Assembly (NCBI RefSeq): GCF_034044635.1
Contig: NZ_JAXCLX010000002.1
Location: 496,001 to 560,000 of the forward strand
DNA length: 64,000 nt
Source of the DNA: Dongia rigui
Lineage (GTDB): Bacteria; Pseudomonadota; Alphaproteobacteria; Dongiales; Dongiaceae
Reading direction: 5' to 3'
In this document: positions 14,423 to 60,424 of the stretch, piece by piece
How the letters are laid out: the number at the start of each line of letters is the position of its first letter
Numbering within the stretch: position 1 is the stretch's first letter
The notes under the pieces: model-generated
Databases searched by the model: none
What the model was told of the DNA's origin: nothing
The model's input: the letters and a program-made list of their open reading frames with translations, nothing else
Program-made: the position numbers and the translations under genes

Positions 14423-15094
14423 ATGGGTATTTTCTCGCGCCTCAGCGATATCGTGAACGCCAACCTCAATGCGCTTCTGGACCGGGCCGAAGATCCGGAA
14501 AAGATGGCGAAGCTGATGATCCAGGAGATGGAGGACACGCTGGTCGAGGTGCGTTCGGCGGCGGTGAAGAACATCTCGGAAAAGAAGGAAATCCAGCGCC
14601 GGTTGGAGCAACTGGCGACAGCCGAGGCCGATTGGGCGCAGAAGGCGGAATTCGCCATCTCCAAGGGCCGCGACGACCTCGCCAAGGGGGCCTTGCTGGC
14701 CAAGCGGAAACTCGGCGAAAGCGCCACGGCTTTGCAGGGTGAATTGAAGGCCGTGGAAGAAGCGCTGGCGCGCCATGACGAAGACCTCGCGCGCCTGCAA
14801 TCTAAGCTGCAGGAAGCCAAGGCCAAGCAGAAGGCGCTCCTCATCCGCCTCAACGCTGCCCAGAAGCGGGTCCAGGTCCGCCGGACGCTGGCGGATGGTC
14901 GGGTCGACGATGCACTGGCGCGGTATGAAACCCTGCACCAGAAGATCGATGAGCTTGAAGGCCGGGCCGAGGTTTACGATATGGGGCAGGGTAAGACCCT
15001 GGAGCAGGAGTTCGCCAATCTTGAAGCCGAGACCGGCCTTGATGCAGAGTTGGCGGCGCTCAAGGAAAAGCTCCGCGCCGAGCACAAGGGCTGA
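14423..15094 (+). CDS. pspA: phage shock protein A
   Basis: A 223-residue PspA/IM30 protein. It begins MGIFSRLSDIVNANLNALLD, the conserved amphipathic membrane-binding helix, followed by EDPEKMAKLMIQEMEDTLVE and long coiled-coil helices (roughly 25-190). PspA is a peripheral inner-membrane ESCRT-III-like protein that stabilises damaged membranes and inhibits PspF. Length and N-terminus are standard. It follows the 54-residue protein and precedes pspB by 57 bp. Confidence 0.96.
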   Translation: MGIFSRLSDIVNANLNALLDRAEDPEKMAKLMIQEMEDTLVEVRSAAVKNISEKKEIQRRLEQLATAEADWAQKAEFAISKGRDDLAKGALLAKRKLGESATALQGELKAVEEALARHDEDLARLQSKLQEAKAKQKALLIRLNAAQKRVQVRRTLADGRVDDALARYETLHQKIDELEGRAEVYDMGQGKTLEQEFANLEAETGLDAELAALKEKLRAEHKG

Positions 15095-51773: not shown

Positions 51774-53087
51774 TTATTCGGCCGCCTTCGCTGTGCCGTT
51801 TGCCACGTCGAGGGCCTGGGCGATATCGGCGAGGATGTCGTCGATATGCTCAATGCCGATCGAGAGGCGGACATAGGAATCGGACACACCACTCGAAAGC
51901 TGCTCTTCGGGCGAGAGCTGCGAGTGTGTGGTCGAGGCCGGATGGATCGCCAGGCTCCGCGCATCGCCGATATTGGCGACGTGGTAGAGCAGCTTCAGTG
52001 AGTCGATGAAGCGGCGGCCGGCATCGAGGCCGCCCTTGATCTCGAAGCCGACGAGGGCACCGTAGCCGCCCTTGAGATAGGTGTCGGCGCGGCGCTTGTC
52101 CTCGCCGGTGGCAAGGCTCGGATGGATGACTTTGGTCACCGCCGGATGGCTGTTGAGATAATCCGTCACCGCCTGCGCGTTCTTCACATGCTCGCGCATG
52201 CGCAAGGGCAGGGTCTCCAGCCCTTGAATGAACATGAAGGCATTGAACGGGCTCATCGCCGAGCCAAGATCACGCAGCAAGGTGACGCGCGCCTTGATGA
52301 TATAGGCGATGGGGCCCAAGGGCTTCACGGCCTGGGTCCAGACGGCGCCGTGATAGGAGGGGTCCGGCTGGTTGAGGCCGGGGAAGCGCGCGGCATTGGC
52401 TTCCCAGTCGAAATTGCCGCCATCAATGATGGCGCCGCCGATCGAGGTGCCGTGACCGCCAATATATTTCGTGGTCGAATAGACGACGATGGCCGCACCA
52501 TGATCGAAGGGGCGGCTGAGGATCGGGGCTGCCGTGTTGTCCATAATGAGCGGCACGCCCAGCTTGCGGCCGATATCGGCGACTTCCTTGATGGGGAAGA
52601 CGCGCAGCTTCGGGTTGGGCAGCGTCTCGGCATAATAGGCGCGGGTCTTGGCATCCGTCGCCTTGGCGAAGGCCTCCGGGTCCTTCGGATCGACGAAGCG
52701 CACCTCAATGCCCTGGTCTTTGAGCGTGTTGGCGAAAAGGTTCCAGGTGCCGCCATAGAGATCGGTCGAGGAGACGATGTTGTCGCCGGCTTTGGCGATG
52801 TTCTGGATCGCGAAGGCCGAGGCGGCCTGGCCGGATGAGACTGCGAGTGCTGCGACGCCGCCCTCGAGTGCGGCAAGGCGCTCTTCGAGCACCGCCGTGG
52901 TCGGGTTCATGATGCGGGTATAGATATTGCCGAAGCGCTTGAGGCCGAAGAGGTCGGCTGCATGGGCGCTGTCGTCGAACTGGTAGGATGTCGTCTGATA
53001 GATCGGCACGGCAACCGAGTTGGTCGCCGCGTCGCGGCGATGGCCGGCGTGGAGCACGATCGTTTCAGGGTGTTTGCTGGCGGTCAT
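51774..53087 (-). CDS. metY: O-acetylhomoserine sulfhydrylase
   Basis: A 437-residue Cys/Met-metabolism PLP enzyme. The long form, with start [20 protein letters not shown] and the segment [20 protein letters not shown], is the MetY type. The PLP lysine is in [18 protein letters not shown], and the C-terminal block [20 protein letters not shown] is standard. It makes homocysteine from O-acetylhomoserine and sulfide. It lies 24 bp after an OsmC-like gene, behind two SAM-II-like aptamers, which fits repression when S-adenosylmethionine is plentiful. Confidence 0.95.
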
Positions 53088-53111: not shown

Positions 53112-53579
53112 TCAGGCGGCGAGTGGATTACTGTCCCGCAGGTTTATGGAAATCTCAAGTCGCGTGGGTGTTGCGTGGCGTAGCAGATCCAGGATCGGAT
53201 CGTGTCTCTCGATCGTGATACGCAGGCGCTCCAGGTCGTAGATGTCTGCGCTGCTGGTCAGGCGTGCTTCCGCACGTACATGACTTGGACCGGCCCGCAC
53301 ACCATCGTCTGCCGCAGCAATACCGTTAAGATCGAGGCCCGCTTCGACCCGGATCTCGACATCGGTGAGGGGGATGTCGAGCGCCGCGGCAAAACGCCGA
53401 TAGGTGGCGGCAAGGCTGCCGGCCAGTGCTTCCAGCACCCGCTGCACGTGGTCGACCTCCGGCCGGGCGGTTTGGGTGGCGGTCCCGGCACGCGCCTTCA
53501 GGGTGATCTGCGCGCGCGCGGGTTCGCGGCGGATCTCGTCCTGCAGGCGGTGACGGGTGGTGTCAGTTTCGGTCGTCAT
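53112..53579 (-). CDS. OsmC-like protein lacking the catalytic cysteines
   Basis: A 155-residue protein with OsmC-like order: DHVQRVLEALAGSLAATYRR (the long central helix), FAAALDIPLTDVEIRVEAGL, then AEARLTSSADIYDLERLRI and ERHDPILDLLRHATPTRLEI. The two peroxidatic positions, usually Gly-x-Cys and a Cys near SPV-x-D-T-L, are not cysteine here; the protein has no cysteine at all. I start at 53579 behind GGAGGG. It is the first gene of the SAM-controlled unit with metY. A peroxidase function is unlikely; a non-catalytic or binding role in sulfur metabolism is a guess. Confidence 0.72.
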   Translation of the reverse strand: MTTETDTTRHRLQDEIRREPARAQITLKARAGTATQTARPEVDHVQRVLEALAGSLAATYRRFAAALDIPLTDVEIRVEAGLDLNGIAAADDGVRAGPSHVRAEARLTSSADIYDLERLRITIERHDPILDLLRHATPTRLEISINLRDSNPLAA

Positions 53580-53629
53580 CGCAATGGTCCCTCCAAGGGT
53601 TACTGTTCCGCCTGGGGCCATGGCATCGA

Positions 53630-53682
53630 AGCGCTTTAGCTTTTGGTGACGCGGTGCAAGCTGCCCCTCAAATGCCGCGGGT
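53630..53682 (-). promoter_or_regulatory. second SAM-II-like riboswitch aptamer
   Basis: On the minus strand the P1 arms CGCGG and CCGCG enclose a loop with CATTTGAGGGGCAGCTTGCA. The tail is GTCACCAAAAGCTAAAGCG. It shares ATTTGA, CAGCTTGC, GCGT and GCTAAAGCGC in order and spacing with the first aptamer 85 bp upstream. It ends about 50 bases before the start codon. No intrinsic terminator follows, so control of translation through the ribosome site GGAGGG is the simpler idea. It might instead be a SAM-V relative. Confidence 0.7.
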
Positions 53683-53702
53683 CCGTTTGCGGTGGACCAA
53701 GC

Positions 53703-53740
53703 CAAAAAAACAAAACCCGCCGCGTCATCGACGGGCGGGC
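53703..53740 (-). terminator. attenuator terminator between the two aptamers
   Basis: On the minus strand GCCCGCC (53740-53734) pairs with GGCGGGT (with a G-U at the base), followed by TTTGTTTTTTT. Just before it, CGTTTTAGCTGC (53750-53739) can instead pair with GCAGCTAAAGCG of the first aptamer (53782-53771). SAM binding to that aptamer would free the terminator. Confidence 0.75.
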
Positions 53741-53767
53741 AGCTAAAACGAGATTTCCTTTACGGAA

Positions 53768-53826
53768 CCGCGCTTTAGCTGCATTTTTAACGCGCCCGCA
53801 AGCTGAGCTTCAAATCGGCGCGGGCG
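53768..53826 (-). promoter_or_regulatory. SAM-II riboswitch aptamer
   Basis: On the minus strand P1 is CGCGCC pairing with GGCGCG. The loop reads GATTTGAAGCTCAGCTTGC, and the 3' part is TTAAAAATGCAGCTAAAGCG. These match the SAM-II (SAM-alpha) pattern as I know it: GATTTGA, GCTTGC, GCGTTAAA and GCTAAAG in this order, forming an H-type pseudoknot. It precedes an operon for homocysteine synthesis, the expected target. A terminator with an alternative antiterminator pairing follows. Confidence 0.88.
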
Positions 53827-53827
53827 G

Positions 53828-53857
53828 AGAATGGTCCTGATCGGGCGTTGATGTCAA
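53828..53857 (-). promoter_or_regulatory. candidate promoter of the SAM-controlled operon
   Basis: On the minus strand TTGACA (53857-53852) is followed by an 18-base spacer and CATTCT (53833-53828), with the first aptamer beginning right after. The -35 is perfect but the -10 matches only three of six bases, and the start of transcription would be very close to the aptamer's first paired base. Confidence 0.35.
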
Positions 53858-53924: not shown

Positions 53925-54950
53925 ATGAGCACATTTCAAGACGTCCTCTTTTCCATCGAGAATGGCCATGGCCGCATCGTGCTGAACCGGCCGCAGGCAT
54001 TGAATGCCCTGACGCTGGAGATGATCGATGCCATGACGGCCCAGCTTGCTGCCTGGGAAATGCGGGCCGACATCAAGGCCATCATCATCACCGGCGCCGG
54101 CGACAAGGCGTTCTGTGCCGGCGGCGACGTGAAGGCCGTGCGCGAAGCCAAGCTGCGTGGCGATATGGGCTTGCTCGAGGATTTCTATCGGCGCGAATAC
54201 ACGCTCAACTATCGACTGGCGACCTATAAGAAACCGATCATCGCGGTGATGGATGGGATCGTCATGGGGGGTGGCGCCGGGATCGCCCTCAACTGCTCGC
54301 ACCCAGTCGTGACGCATAAGACCGTCTTTGCCATGCCGGAATGCCGCATCGGCCTTTTTCCCGATGTCGGCGCGGCGCATTTCCTCAACCGCGCTTCACC
54401 GGCGGTGGCTCAGATCCTCGCGCTGATCGGCCTTGCTTTGCGTGGGCCTGGCGTGGTGCGGGTCGGCCTGACCAAGTACTTTATCGGTAGCGGTCGGGTG
54501 GGGGAGATTGCGATCGACAAGCTCGATGACCTACGTCTACCGGTCGAAACCGCCGGTATCGAGCAGATGCTGCCCAATATCGAGGCCGTCTTCGGTTTGA
54601 AGACCCTGGACGAGATCATGACGGTGCTCGGCGCCCGGCGCGATGTCTGGGCGGTCGAAACCCTGAAGGCCCTCAAAAGCCATTCGCCGACCAGCCTGCG
54701 GGTCACTTTCGCCCACATCGCCAATTCGCGCGGCAAGGATTTGGCCGAGGTCTTGAAGACAGACTTCCGCCTGGTGCAGCATTTCATGGTGGCGCCAGAC
54801 TTTTTTGAAGGCGTCCGGGCCCAGTTGGTCGACAAGGACGGGGCGCCGAAATGGCAGCCGGCGGACCTTGGCAGTGTTTCCGCGGCGACCGTAGAGGCCT
54901 ATTTCGACCCCATGCCGGGCGTTAAAGATTGGGTGGCCCCCGGCCGGTGA
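53925..54950 (+). CDS. 3-hydroxyisobutyryl-CoA hydrolase-like enzyme (crotonase fold)
   Basis: A 341-residue crotonase-superfamily protein. The start VLFSIENGHGRIVLNRPQAL, the oxyanion loops AFCAGGDVKAVRE and GIVMGGGAGIALNCSHPV, and the HIBCH-specific block FAMPECRIGLFPDVGAAHFL are present, with the catalytic glutamate in PECRIG. HIBCH proteins release 3-hydroxyisobutyrate in valine breakdown. Slightly shorter than the usual 350-380. It is divergent from the SAM-riboswitch operon. Confidence 0.9.
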   Translation: MSTFQDVLFSIENGHGRIVLNRPQALNALTLEMIDAMTAQLAAWEMRADIKAIIITGAGDKAFCAGGDVKAVREAKLRGDMGLLEDFYRREYTLNYRLATYKKPIIAVMDGIVMGGGAGIALNCSHPVVTHKTVFAMPECRIGLFPDVGAAHFLNRASPAVAQILALIGLALRGPGVVRVGLTKYFIGSGRVGEIAIDKLDDLRLPVETAGIEQMLPNIEAVFGLKTLDEIMTVLGARRDVWAVETLKALKSHSPTSLRVTFAHIANSRGKDLAEVLKTDFRLVQHFMVAPDFFEGVRAQLVDKDGAPKWQPADLGSVSAATVEAYFDPMPGVKDWVAPGR

Positions 54951-58972: not shown

Positions 58973-60424
58973 TCAGGCAGTGCGCGTCATGCCGAAGAAG
59001 CGGCGCAGCTTGACATCGATCGGCAGGTCGTGGGCGCTGAGCAGCATCACCTTGCTGCCGCATTCATGGACCTGCGGGCTGATCGACACGCCGATCACCT
59101 TGGCAATGGCTGCTATTCGGCTGGCGACATGATCCTGTTCCAGGCTTGGGAACAAGGCGCCGCGCACATTCTTGTCTTCAAGGTTCCAGGCAAATCCCAT
59201 CTGCGGCCGGAAGCGGCTGCTGCCGGCGCGCTGCTGCGGCATGCCGCGCTCATGGGCCATTTCTTCCAGTTCGTTGAGGACATGCTCGGCACCCAGATGA
59301 TTGTCCTCATAGGACATCGCCTTGCGGAAGGCATCGCGCATGTCGCGGGAATAGAAATTCGCGTTGGCATGCATGGTCCCGGCGGCATCGATCAGGTCCA
59401 GCGTCTCCTCGACCGTGCGCGCCACCGGATTGACCCGGTTGGAGAGGTAGCGGTCGTTGGTTGCCGTCTCGGTCGGCAGGACGCATACGGCTGGCGTATC
59501 GAGCGCCGCGGCTTCGACGCCCGTGGTGCAATTGGTGTGAACCAGCACGTCGGCCGCTAGAATCCACGGGATCGCCGGGCCCTCGCGGATGACGTCGACG
59601 ACGGCATGCCCGTCGACCTGCGAGCGCCACGTATCCAGGCGTTCGCTGGGGTGAGGGCGCAAGACAATGCGTCGGTCCGGGAAACGCTTTGGCAATTCGT
59701 CGATCAACCGCACGATCGTTTCGCGGTTGGCGGATTCCATCGCCAGGATCCCATTCACATAGGCGACATGCTTTGGGTTCGCCATCGACAGCTTGCCGAG
59801 GCGCTCCTGCTCGCTGATGATCTCTTCGGCCGATCCTTTTTCCGAATTCGTGAATCCGAGATTGGTGTTGATGAGGATAAAGGAACCGAACCGGGCACGT
59901 AGCGCCGCCGCTTCCTGCTCATAAAAGTCGCGCAAGCCCGGCCGCAGCAGGTCCCAGCGCGGGTTGAGCGCGCTTATCACGCGCCCTGCGGCTTTCGGGA
60001 AGCGTTGGCGGACCGAGGCGGAATTATGTTCGCCGCTGATGAAGATCCTGTCGGTGACGTCGACCGCGTCATCGGCGATCCAGCGCAGTTCATCGGGCGA
60101 GGTGACCAAGCCCGGCATTTCCTCATCGATCGCAGCGACCACGTAGCCGCGCTCCTTGGCCTGAACCAGCGATTTGGCGTCGCGCTGGGTCAGCGTCTTC
60201 GACAGGTAGATCCCCGGCGGCATGACGTCGACATTGCGCTCGATCAGCCATTTCTGGCCCAGCACCACTTCGAAACCGCGCTTGAGCGCCAGGGCCGCGA
60301 GCAGCAGGCGCGAATCCAGCTCGCGCGAGGCGATCTCCATCGGCAGATAGAGCAGGCGCTGCAGCGGGGCGCGTTTGCCCCTCAACGGCGCGGCGTCTGC
60401 GGATGGTGATGTCGACACGGGCAA
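58973..60424 (-). CDS. surface carbohydrate biosynthesis protein, glycosyltransferase-like
   Basis: A 483-residue protein with GT-B-like features: LYLPMEIASRELDSRLLLAA near the start, VVLRPHPSERLDTW and VHTNCTTGVEAAALDTPAVC in the second half, resembling the phosphate/nucleotide-binding loop of CDP-glycerol-type and bacterial surface-polysaccharide transferases. It resembles the group annotated as surface carbohydrate biosynthesis protein. It is immediately upstream of the Pse fusion gene on the same strand, so a pseudaminic acid transferase or a glycan polymer step is likely. Confidence 0.78.
   Translation of the reverse strand: MPVSTSPSADAAPLRGKRAPLQRLLYLPMEIASRELDSRLLLAALALKRGFEVVLGQKWLIERNVDVMPPGIYLSKTLTQRDAKSLVQAKERGYVVAAIDEEMPGLVTSPDELRWIADDAVDVTDRIFISGEHNSASVRQRFPKAAGRVISALNPRWDLLRPGLRDFYEQEAAALRARFGSFILINTNLGFTNSEKGSAEEIISEQERLGKLSMANPKHVAYVNGILAMESANRETIVRLIDELPKRFPDRRIVLRPHPSERLDTWRSQVDGHAVVDVIREGPAIPWILAADVLVHTNCTTGVEAAALDTPAVCVLPTETATNDRYLSNRVNPVARTVEETLDLIDAAGTMHANANFYSRDMRDAFRKAMSYEDNHLGAEHVLNELEEMAHERGMPQQRAGSSRFRPQMGFAWNLEDKNVRGALFPSLEQDHVASRIAAIAKVIGVSISPQVHECGSKVMLLSAHDLPIDVKLRRFFGMTRTA

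Follow-up and report, generated by a model that had tools for sequence, protein, structure and literature searches.

SAM-II riboswitches (RF00521) combine a P1 stem, an AUUUG third strand, a P2 stem lying between GCUUGC and GCUAAAG, and a distal pairing that runs from the loop to the 3′ side. In the Alphaproteobacteria these aptamers are most often followed by terminators (PMC2258182), and in Sinorhizobium there is a translational SAM-II with the Shine-Dalgarno sequence within the riboswitch (PMC9373788). Among the groups covered by one comparative study, SAM_alpha occurs only in Rhizobiales and Rhodobacterales (PMC4239095), a restricted range that fits a variant missed by the model. The SAM-II long loop (RF01726), like the element described below, is a SAM-II relative outside the main model, from Bacteroidetes and marine sources (PMC2864571). 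SAM-V (RF01826) has a SAM-II-like core with a P3 between P1 and P2, and a short P2a of 2 bp with the Shine-Dalgarno sequence inside it (PMC6061858). Tandem SAM-II/SAM-V arrangements are described in marine bacteria (PMC11508383, PMC6061858, PMC2704228). In one survey, 44 SAM-II pairs in tandem are reported, and in some of them the first aptamer is followed by a terminator and the second controls the ribosome-binding site (PMC9481103). The first-pass annotation of the present locus had called two SAM-II aptamers in series uncommon, which does not hold against this number. The two-level tandem as such is already known, and what is new here is the variant found in second position.

The two aptamers upstream of osmC-metY

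The window is the whole 64,000-nucleotide stretch of Dongia rigui DNA that was analyzed. Two SAM-II-type aptamers, copy 1 and copy 2, lie on its minus strand 5′ of osmC-metY, between osmC and a plus-strand ORF starting at 53925. In addition to the Rfam models, copy 2 is scored with R1, a copy 2 model of 17 sequences all from the window's family, and with R3, which was trained on 40 sequences from outside that family to avoid circularity. The features are as follows.

53828..53857, minus strand: possible promoter by sequence reading (TTGACA 53857-53852, CATTCT 53833-53828, 18-nt spacer)
53756..53831, minus strand: copy 1, SAM-II aptamer (RF00521, 41.5 bits, cut-off 36)
53704..53739, minus strand: intrinsic terminator, hairpin 53739-53716 (-18.8 kcal/mol, locus L069) and T-run 53715-53704, also from a pattern scan
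53680..53698, minus strand: P0 hairpin of copy 2, GGTCC 53698-53694 with GGACC 53684-53680, from covariation in the class
53611..53687, minus strand: copy 2, variant SAM-II-type aptamer (R3 72.1 bits, E=8.6e-19; R1 93.5 bits, non-independent since the window copy is in the R1 training set)
53679-53675 / 53654-53650, minus strand: P1 of copy 2
53673-53669, minus strand: third strand of copy 2, ATTTG
53667-53663, minus strand: L1 of copy 2, GGGGC
53661-53656 / 53640-53633, minus strand: P2 of copy 2
53618-53614, minus strand: X strand of copy 2, GCCCC
53589..53594, minus strand: osmC Shine-Dalgarno sequence GGAGGG, by sequence reading
53112..53579, minus strand: osmC-like gene, first in the presumed operon (PF02566, 28.3 bits, cut-off 27.5)
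51774..53087, minus strand: metY-like gene for a Cys/Met-metabolism PLP enzyme (PF01053, 408 bits)

No other stretch of the window exceeds an Rfam cut-off than copy 1 (E=6e-6), which is classed as an ordinary SAM-II riboswitch. Copy 2 fails RF00521 (19.5 bits against a cut-off of 36) as well as the long-loop model RF01726 (17.3 bits against 44), and gives no match to RF01826 up to E=10 in 451 bases. R3, run on the whole window, gives copy 1 26.1 bits, far from the score of copy 2. Both copies therefore resemble aptamers beyond chance, each under its own model. A weak R3 match at 14717-14799 (15.3 bits) reads as coding sequence and was set aside as chance. The first-pass annotation had read the second aptamer as SAM-II rather than SAM-V: the exclusion of SAM-V stands, the assignment to ordinary SAM-II does not, and of the two copies the Rfam SAM-II and SAM-V models place only the first over a threshold.

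All the motifs named at that stage are located in both copies, in the same order on the minus strand: ATTTGA at 53815-53810 in copy 1 and 53673-53668 in copy 2, CAGCTTGC at 53805-53798 and 53663-53656, GCGT at 53793-53790 and 53652-53649, and GCTAAAGCGC at 53779-53770 and 53640-53631. The two P1 helices are distinct, GCGCC/GGCGC in copy 1 (53821-53817 with 53796-53792) and CGCGG/CCGCG in copy 2. The span first proposed, 53630-53826, clips the elements at both ends, and better limits are 53831-53756 and 53687-53611. Downstream of copy 2 come the osmC Shine-Dalgarno sequence, the ATG, osmC and metY, and Pfam bears out the OsmC-like gene and metY that had been placed there. The PLP enzyme is of the MetY kind by resemblance, and the osmC-like product scores 27.6 bits with NF041052, under its cut-off of 95. 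A consensus promoter scan found none at 53828..53857, and in 21 of the 22 tandem loci described below (the exception is L078) a TTGAC is seen by eye no more than 50 nt 5′ of copy 1. The terminator is detected independently by the pattern scan, with 0.7 expected in shuffles. Elsewhere in the window's genome, ordinary SAM-II is present at two further places, before genes that are metA- and metZ-like by resemblance.

Architecture and range of the copy 2 class

Searching 385 alphaproteobacterial genomes with R1 gives a match at E<=0.01 in 94. The scores fall into two groups, one made up of 86 loci that reach at least 46 bits, and a remainder at 34.7 bits or less that includes copy 1 of the window at 26.0. 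The 86 loci form the variant class, spread over 68 of the 385 sampled genomes and 36 families, and they lie close before sulfur/methionine genes or Cys-rich leader peptides. In a sample of 398 genomes of the phylum, of uncounted class make-up, 15 match R3 at E<=1e-6, all of them alphaproteobacterial. Copy 1 is a member of RF00521, whereas copy 2 and most of its class score below the cut-off. When 20 copy 2 loci are compared with all Rfam models (E<=1), the copy 2 element passes a cut-off in one (L113, 36.8 bits); RF00521, run on 190 genomes, places at least two further class members just over its cut-off (G201:C205, 37.9 bits; G150:C1, 36.8 bits). A pattern scan of named genomes finds at least 119 stretches. 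Among the 80 matches listed, record titles are largely those of Sphingomonadales, Rhizobiales, Azospirillum-type, Roseomonas-type and other alphaproteobacteria, including Novosphingobium, Sphingomonas, Bosea, Microvirga, Azospirillum and Roseomonas. An Actinomycetota MAG contig (L189, PKYG01000095.1) holds two pattern matches about 3.8 kb apart, and is possibly misbinned alphaproteobacterial DNA. In the open-access literature searched, no description was found of the variant or of SAM-plus-Cys leaders.

The SAM-II core (the P1/P2 pseudoknot, AUUUG, GCUUGC and GCUAAAG) is present in copy 2, but the class adds to it a 5′ hairpin, P0, and an inserted hairpin, P4, and its distal pseudoknot is closed across P4. 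R3 is used for detection only, since its RNAalifold structure missed P4 and drew a hairpin inside GCTAAAGC. All cells counted for P1 and P2 (100%) are paired in the 40 sequences from other families, with compensatory changes at two of the five P1 pairs and an invariant P2. P0 sits directly 5′ of P1, and its sequence varies as its pairing is kept (own versus permuted pairs, z=-11.9 over 74 of the 86 loci after deduplication, with permutation as the control). P4 is found between GCUAAAGCG and the X strand. Its base, CCACG/CGTGG, is identical in 59 of the 86 loci, and 14 of the 40 sequences have AU in place of GC as its sixth pair. The number of further pair types in A4 was reached by 121 of 500 shuffles.

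Behind P4, the loop strand L1 pairs with X. Over 64 of the 86 loci, deduplicated by family and L1 and having a recognizable P4 that sets the X window, this pairing gives z=-6.4, against +1.1, +2.0 and +1.0 in control windows. It holds in the 27 loci without the common GGGC strand (z=-4.0), about four of which show none, and examples include GGGAGC with GUUCCC, CGGAA with UUCCG, and GGAUC with GAUCC. Counting pairs at fixed positions is not significant (34 of 64 loci fully paired versus 31.0 expected). The L1-versus-X figure in two-state folding is circular, X being chosen there by its own pairing, and the window set by P4 is used instead. The predicted P0, L1-X, P1 and P4 pairs are thus supported by covariation. 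In copy 2 of the window, P0 (GGTCC/GGACC) and L1-X (GGGGC/GCCCC) are both present, and there is no stable P4 hairpin (0.0 kcal/mol), P4 being lost in the window's genus. At two loci before metY-like genes, L104 (G391) and L131 (G120), X is GATCC and pairs with an L1 of GGATC after a longer insert, not a short P4. On these grounds copy 2 is judged to be a real element and a variant within the SAM-II superfamily, and its class a structural variant of that superfamily so far unrecognized.

A proposed two-stage control and its alternatives

Two aptamers with a terminator between them, a position just before the Shine-Dalgarno sequence, the same order in 11 families and a distinct copy 2 architecture are established at the level of sequence. 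From this layout, steps of transcriptional and translational control may be proposed. SAM binding to copy 1 would favor the intrinsic terminator 3′ of it. Transcripts that escape would carry copy 2, placed between the terminator and the osmC ribosome-binding site, and copy 2, most likely sensing SAM again, would lower translation initiation of osmC-metY. We give a probability of roughly 0.68 to this reading, in which an old and conserved two-stage control joins SAM-II and a terminator to a variant that likely senses SAM and lowers osmC-metY translation. The anatomy fits the two-level switch suggested in the first-pass annotation, whose observation is confirmed and whose interpretation is partly supported. 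The layout is also that of the bi-mechanism tandems (PMC9481103), with the first aptamer before a terminator and the second near the ribosome-binding site; the difference is that the second aptamer here is the P0/P4 variant, and overlap with the 44 pairs reported there is possible.

SAM-induced termination is expected for copy 1 because terminators are usual after SAM-II in the Alphaproteobacteria. In the free ensemble of copy 1, a strand farther downstream pairs with the P2 strand (0.998), and pairing of the window's terminator stem goes from 0.918 when free to 0.999 with the aptamer held bound. The terminator forms either way, and therefore equilibrium folding alone is no demonstration of a copy 1 switch. 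For copy 2, the unchanged binding core and the sulfur gene set point to SAM as the ligand. Repression rather than activation is likelier for the window, because of the gene content and of the terminator-type partner.

An alternative is that copy 2 binds SAM but activates translation, or that it binds another sulfur-related ligand, in which case the two copies would not be serial repressors. Two-state folding leans this way: L1-X overlaps the strands that pair with the Shine-Dalgarno sequence, so that closing the aptamer tends to open it. Of 60 loci with a usable start and Shine-Dalgarno sequence, 27 gain more than 0.1 in Shine-Dalgarno openness when the aptamer is held with L1-X closed, and eight lose, a calculation biased toward opening since bases held unpaired tend to open the rest. 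At the window locus it goes from 0.35 to 0.44, and the window's X is itself able to pair with the Shine-Dalgarno region. This alternative is nevertheless unlikely. It is hard to see why SAM should switch on biosynthetic genes that stand behind a SAM-II and its terminator, the SAM-contacting core of SAM-II is unchanged in copy 2, and the complementarity of X to the Shine-Dalgarno region does not exceed that under permutation (z=-0.9 over 68 loci and z=-0.5 over 53, in each case those with a usable start and Shine-Dalgarno sequence). Start codons in these folding and complementarity counts were picked automatically, and some will be wrong.

X was accordingly rejected as a general anti-Shine-Dalgarno strand, and it is not significant in leader-peptide loci alone (z=-1.5 over 31). 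Significance is reached by the P4 3′ strand, complementary to the Shine-Dalgarno region beyond permutation over the 53 loci (z=-4.4), with z=-4.0 over 22 loci before structural genes and z=-2.0 over 31 before leader peptides; the P1-region and P4-5′ controls lie between -0.7 and +2.0. Loci before structural genes and those before leader peptides differ in how the P4 3′ strand and X are balanced (Mann-Whitney p=0.0019, 22 versus 29 loci), a contrast made on 51 loci after dropping L068, where a wrong start was picked, and L137. Because of this complementarity and of the strand balance by locus kind, the class element looks built to expose or hide the ribosome-binding site.

The age of the two-stage arrangement is read from the tandem loci. 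R2, a model of copy 1 relatives for which 14 of the 17 training sequences come from the same tandem loci, finds a separate SAM-II at 22 of the 86 class loci, in 22 genomes and 11 families. This count covers about 500 nt before each locus, less at contig ends, so farther copies would be missed. In every one of the 22 the SAM-II comes first, on the 5′ side of the variant. Between the copies, 20 of them have a terminator of -14.4 kcal/mol or stronger, while none of the 64 single loci has one of even -10 kcal/mol in the preceding 110 nt. One exception, L084, has the hairpin with a weaker T-tract (by eye). In the other, L081 (G275:C1), a copy 1 about 125 nt upstream has changed core uridines (GTTCGA, GCTCGC, GCCGAAG) and copy 2 is intact, so that this locus appears to be a decayed first stage. 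Core identity, compared in 14 of the 22 tandem loci, is 0.66 between the two copies of one locus and likewise 0.66 between copy 1 and copy 2 of different families, against 0.83 and 0.85 between same-kind copies across families. Because the within-locus value equals the between-family one, the split between copy 1 and copy 2 is judged older than the lineages compared, and the tandem one old arrangement rather than a duplication in this lineage. In the genome G003 (L020/L156 on C135, L008/L157 on C6), two contigs each hold part of the copy 1 aptamer, and TTATAAA stands at both broken ends, as might be left by a mobile element inserted into the riboswitch.

Local duplication had been suggested early on as the origin of the pair. 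That both copies are ordinary SAM-II riboswitches arisen in this way would explain the core motifs common to both in the same order, but it is very improbable: the identity within the locus is that between families, and RF00521 and R3 rank the copies in opposite ways (19.5 and 72.1 bits for copy 2, 41.5 and 26.1 bits for copy 1). A decaying, non-functional relict, to which the low Rfam score of copy 2 and the loss of P4 in the genus could point, has a very small chance of being correct, as 41 columns of copy 2 are invariant over 17 relatives of the window's family and 13 of the order's 17 genomes searched retain both copies intact. The other four comprise one leader split over two contigs, two genomes with copy-1-like matches only, and one with none. 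In the tandem with one decayed copy, L081, the decayed one is copy 1 (by eye). The idea that copy 2 is a SAM-V, as in the marine arrangement, can be set aside with near certainty: it shares with SAM-V a SAM-II-like core, second place in a tandem and a position close to the start codon that makes it translational by position, but besides the lack of an RF01826 match at the locus there is none in the window's genome and none at E<=1 in the 20 copy 2 loci, and where SAM-V has P3 and a P2a enclosing the Shine-Dalgarno sequence (PMC6061858), copy 2 has no stem-loop between P1 and the P2 3′ strand, just a linker of 9 nt after the P1 3′ strand (53649-53641), and an X strand 19 nt upstream of the Shine-Dalgarno sequence. 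Across the 385 alphaproteobacterial genomes, SAM-V matches occur in 11, four of them over the cut-off. At G119:C19:1348-1531, on the minus strand, a sub-threshold SAM-V (34.9 bits, cut-off 41) lies 37 nt after a sub-threshold SAM-II (28.5 bits), a possible SAM-II/SAM-V pair.

Sulfur genes and cysteine leader peptides

A scan of 20 downstream proteins gives Pfam matches for 14 (L152 below its cut-off), most of them of sulfur/methionine metabolism. They include siroheme synthase, nitrite/sulfite reductase, PAPS reductase (twice), a Cys/Met PLP enzyme, a MetX-kind alpha/beta hydrolase, homoserine O-succinyltransferase, MTHFR, an ABC ATPase with a NIL domain, an extracellular solute-binding protein, an NlpA lipoprotein, DUF2849 and a porin. 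For the remaining six there is no Pfam match, and three of these are copies of one small protein.

The first start codon is, at many loci, that of a short leader peptide. Two or more Cys are found in 18 of 29 deduplicated leader ORFs, versus 16% of a background of 6,578 short ORFs at these loci, and CC in 10 of the 29 versus 3% of that background. The window's genome itself has a standalone element of the copy 2 type, G000:C1:60313-60395 (L023, L076; 73.1 bits with R3 at 60313-60394). On its 3′ side is a 21-residue ORF ending in GTCC, and then a protein of 73 residues that matches nothing in Pfam or NCBIfam. The same succession of a standalone element, a Cys-clustered leader ORF and a protein of about 65-80 residues is seen at L077, L080, L095, L101, L108, L118, L140 and others, and the three copies of the small protein that were scanned have no Pfam or NCBIfam match. 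The closest described leader is uORFC-8-2, before cysS in Rhodobacterales, a short ORF that carries neighboring Cys codons toward its end and precedes a sulfur-related gene (PMC8632094). The leaders found here differ in that they come after a SAM-II-type variant.

The strand contrast by locus kind and the Cys enrichment might point to a two-way wiring. That this undescribed class runs much of the sulfur regulon, with the P4 3′ strand as anti-Shine-Dalgarno before structural genes and X taking more of that part before Cys leaders, is a tentative idea to which we give little weight. If it is true, one leader would read both SAM and the supply of cysteinyl-tRNA, and SAM would possibly turn the gene off by turning on translation of the leader peptide. 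The Cys-leader loci make joint control by SAM and cysteine directly testable.

Loci that keep both copies, those with the second only, and the one with a decayed first copy offer a natural test of two-level sensing of one ligand. Because the class falls mostly under the current Rfam cut-offs, regulons and tandem counts drawn from those models are probably incomplete. The main interest of the locus lies in the unrecognized variant and its link to cysteine leader peptides, more than in the tandem. A probable SAM sensor precedes sulfur and methionine genes in many alphaproteobacteria.
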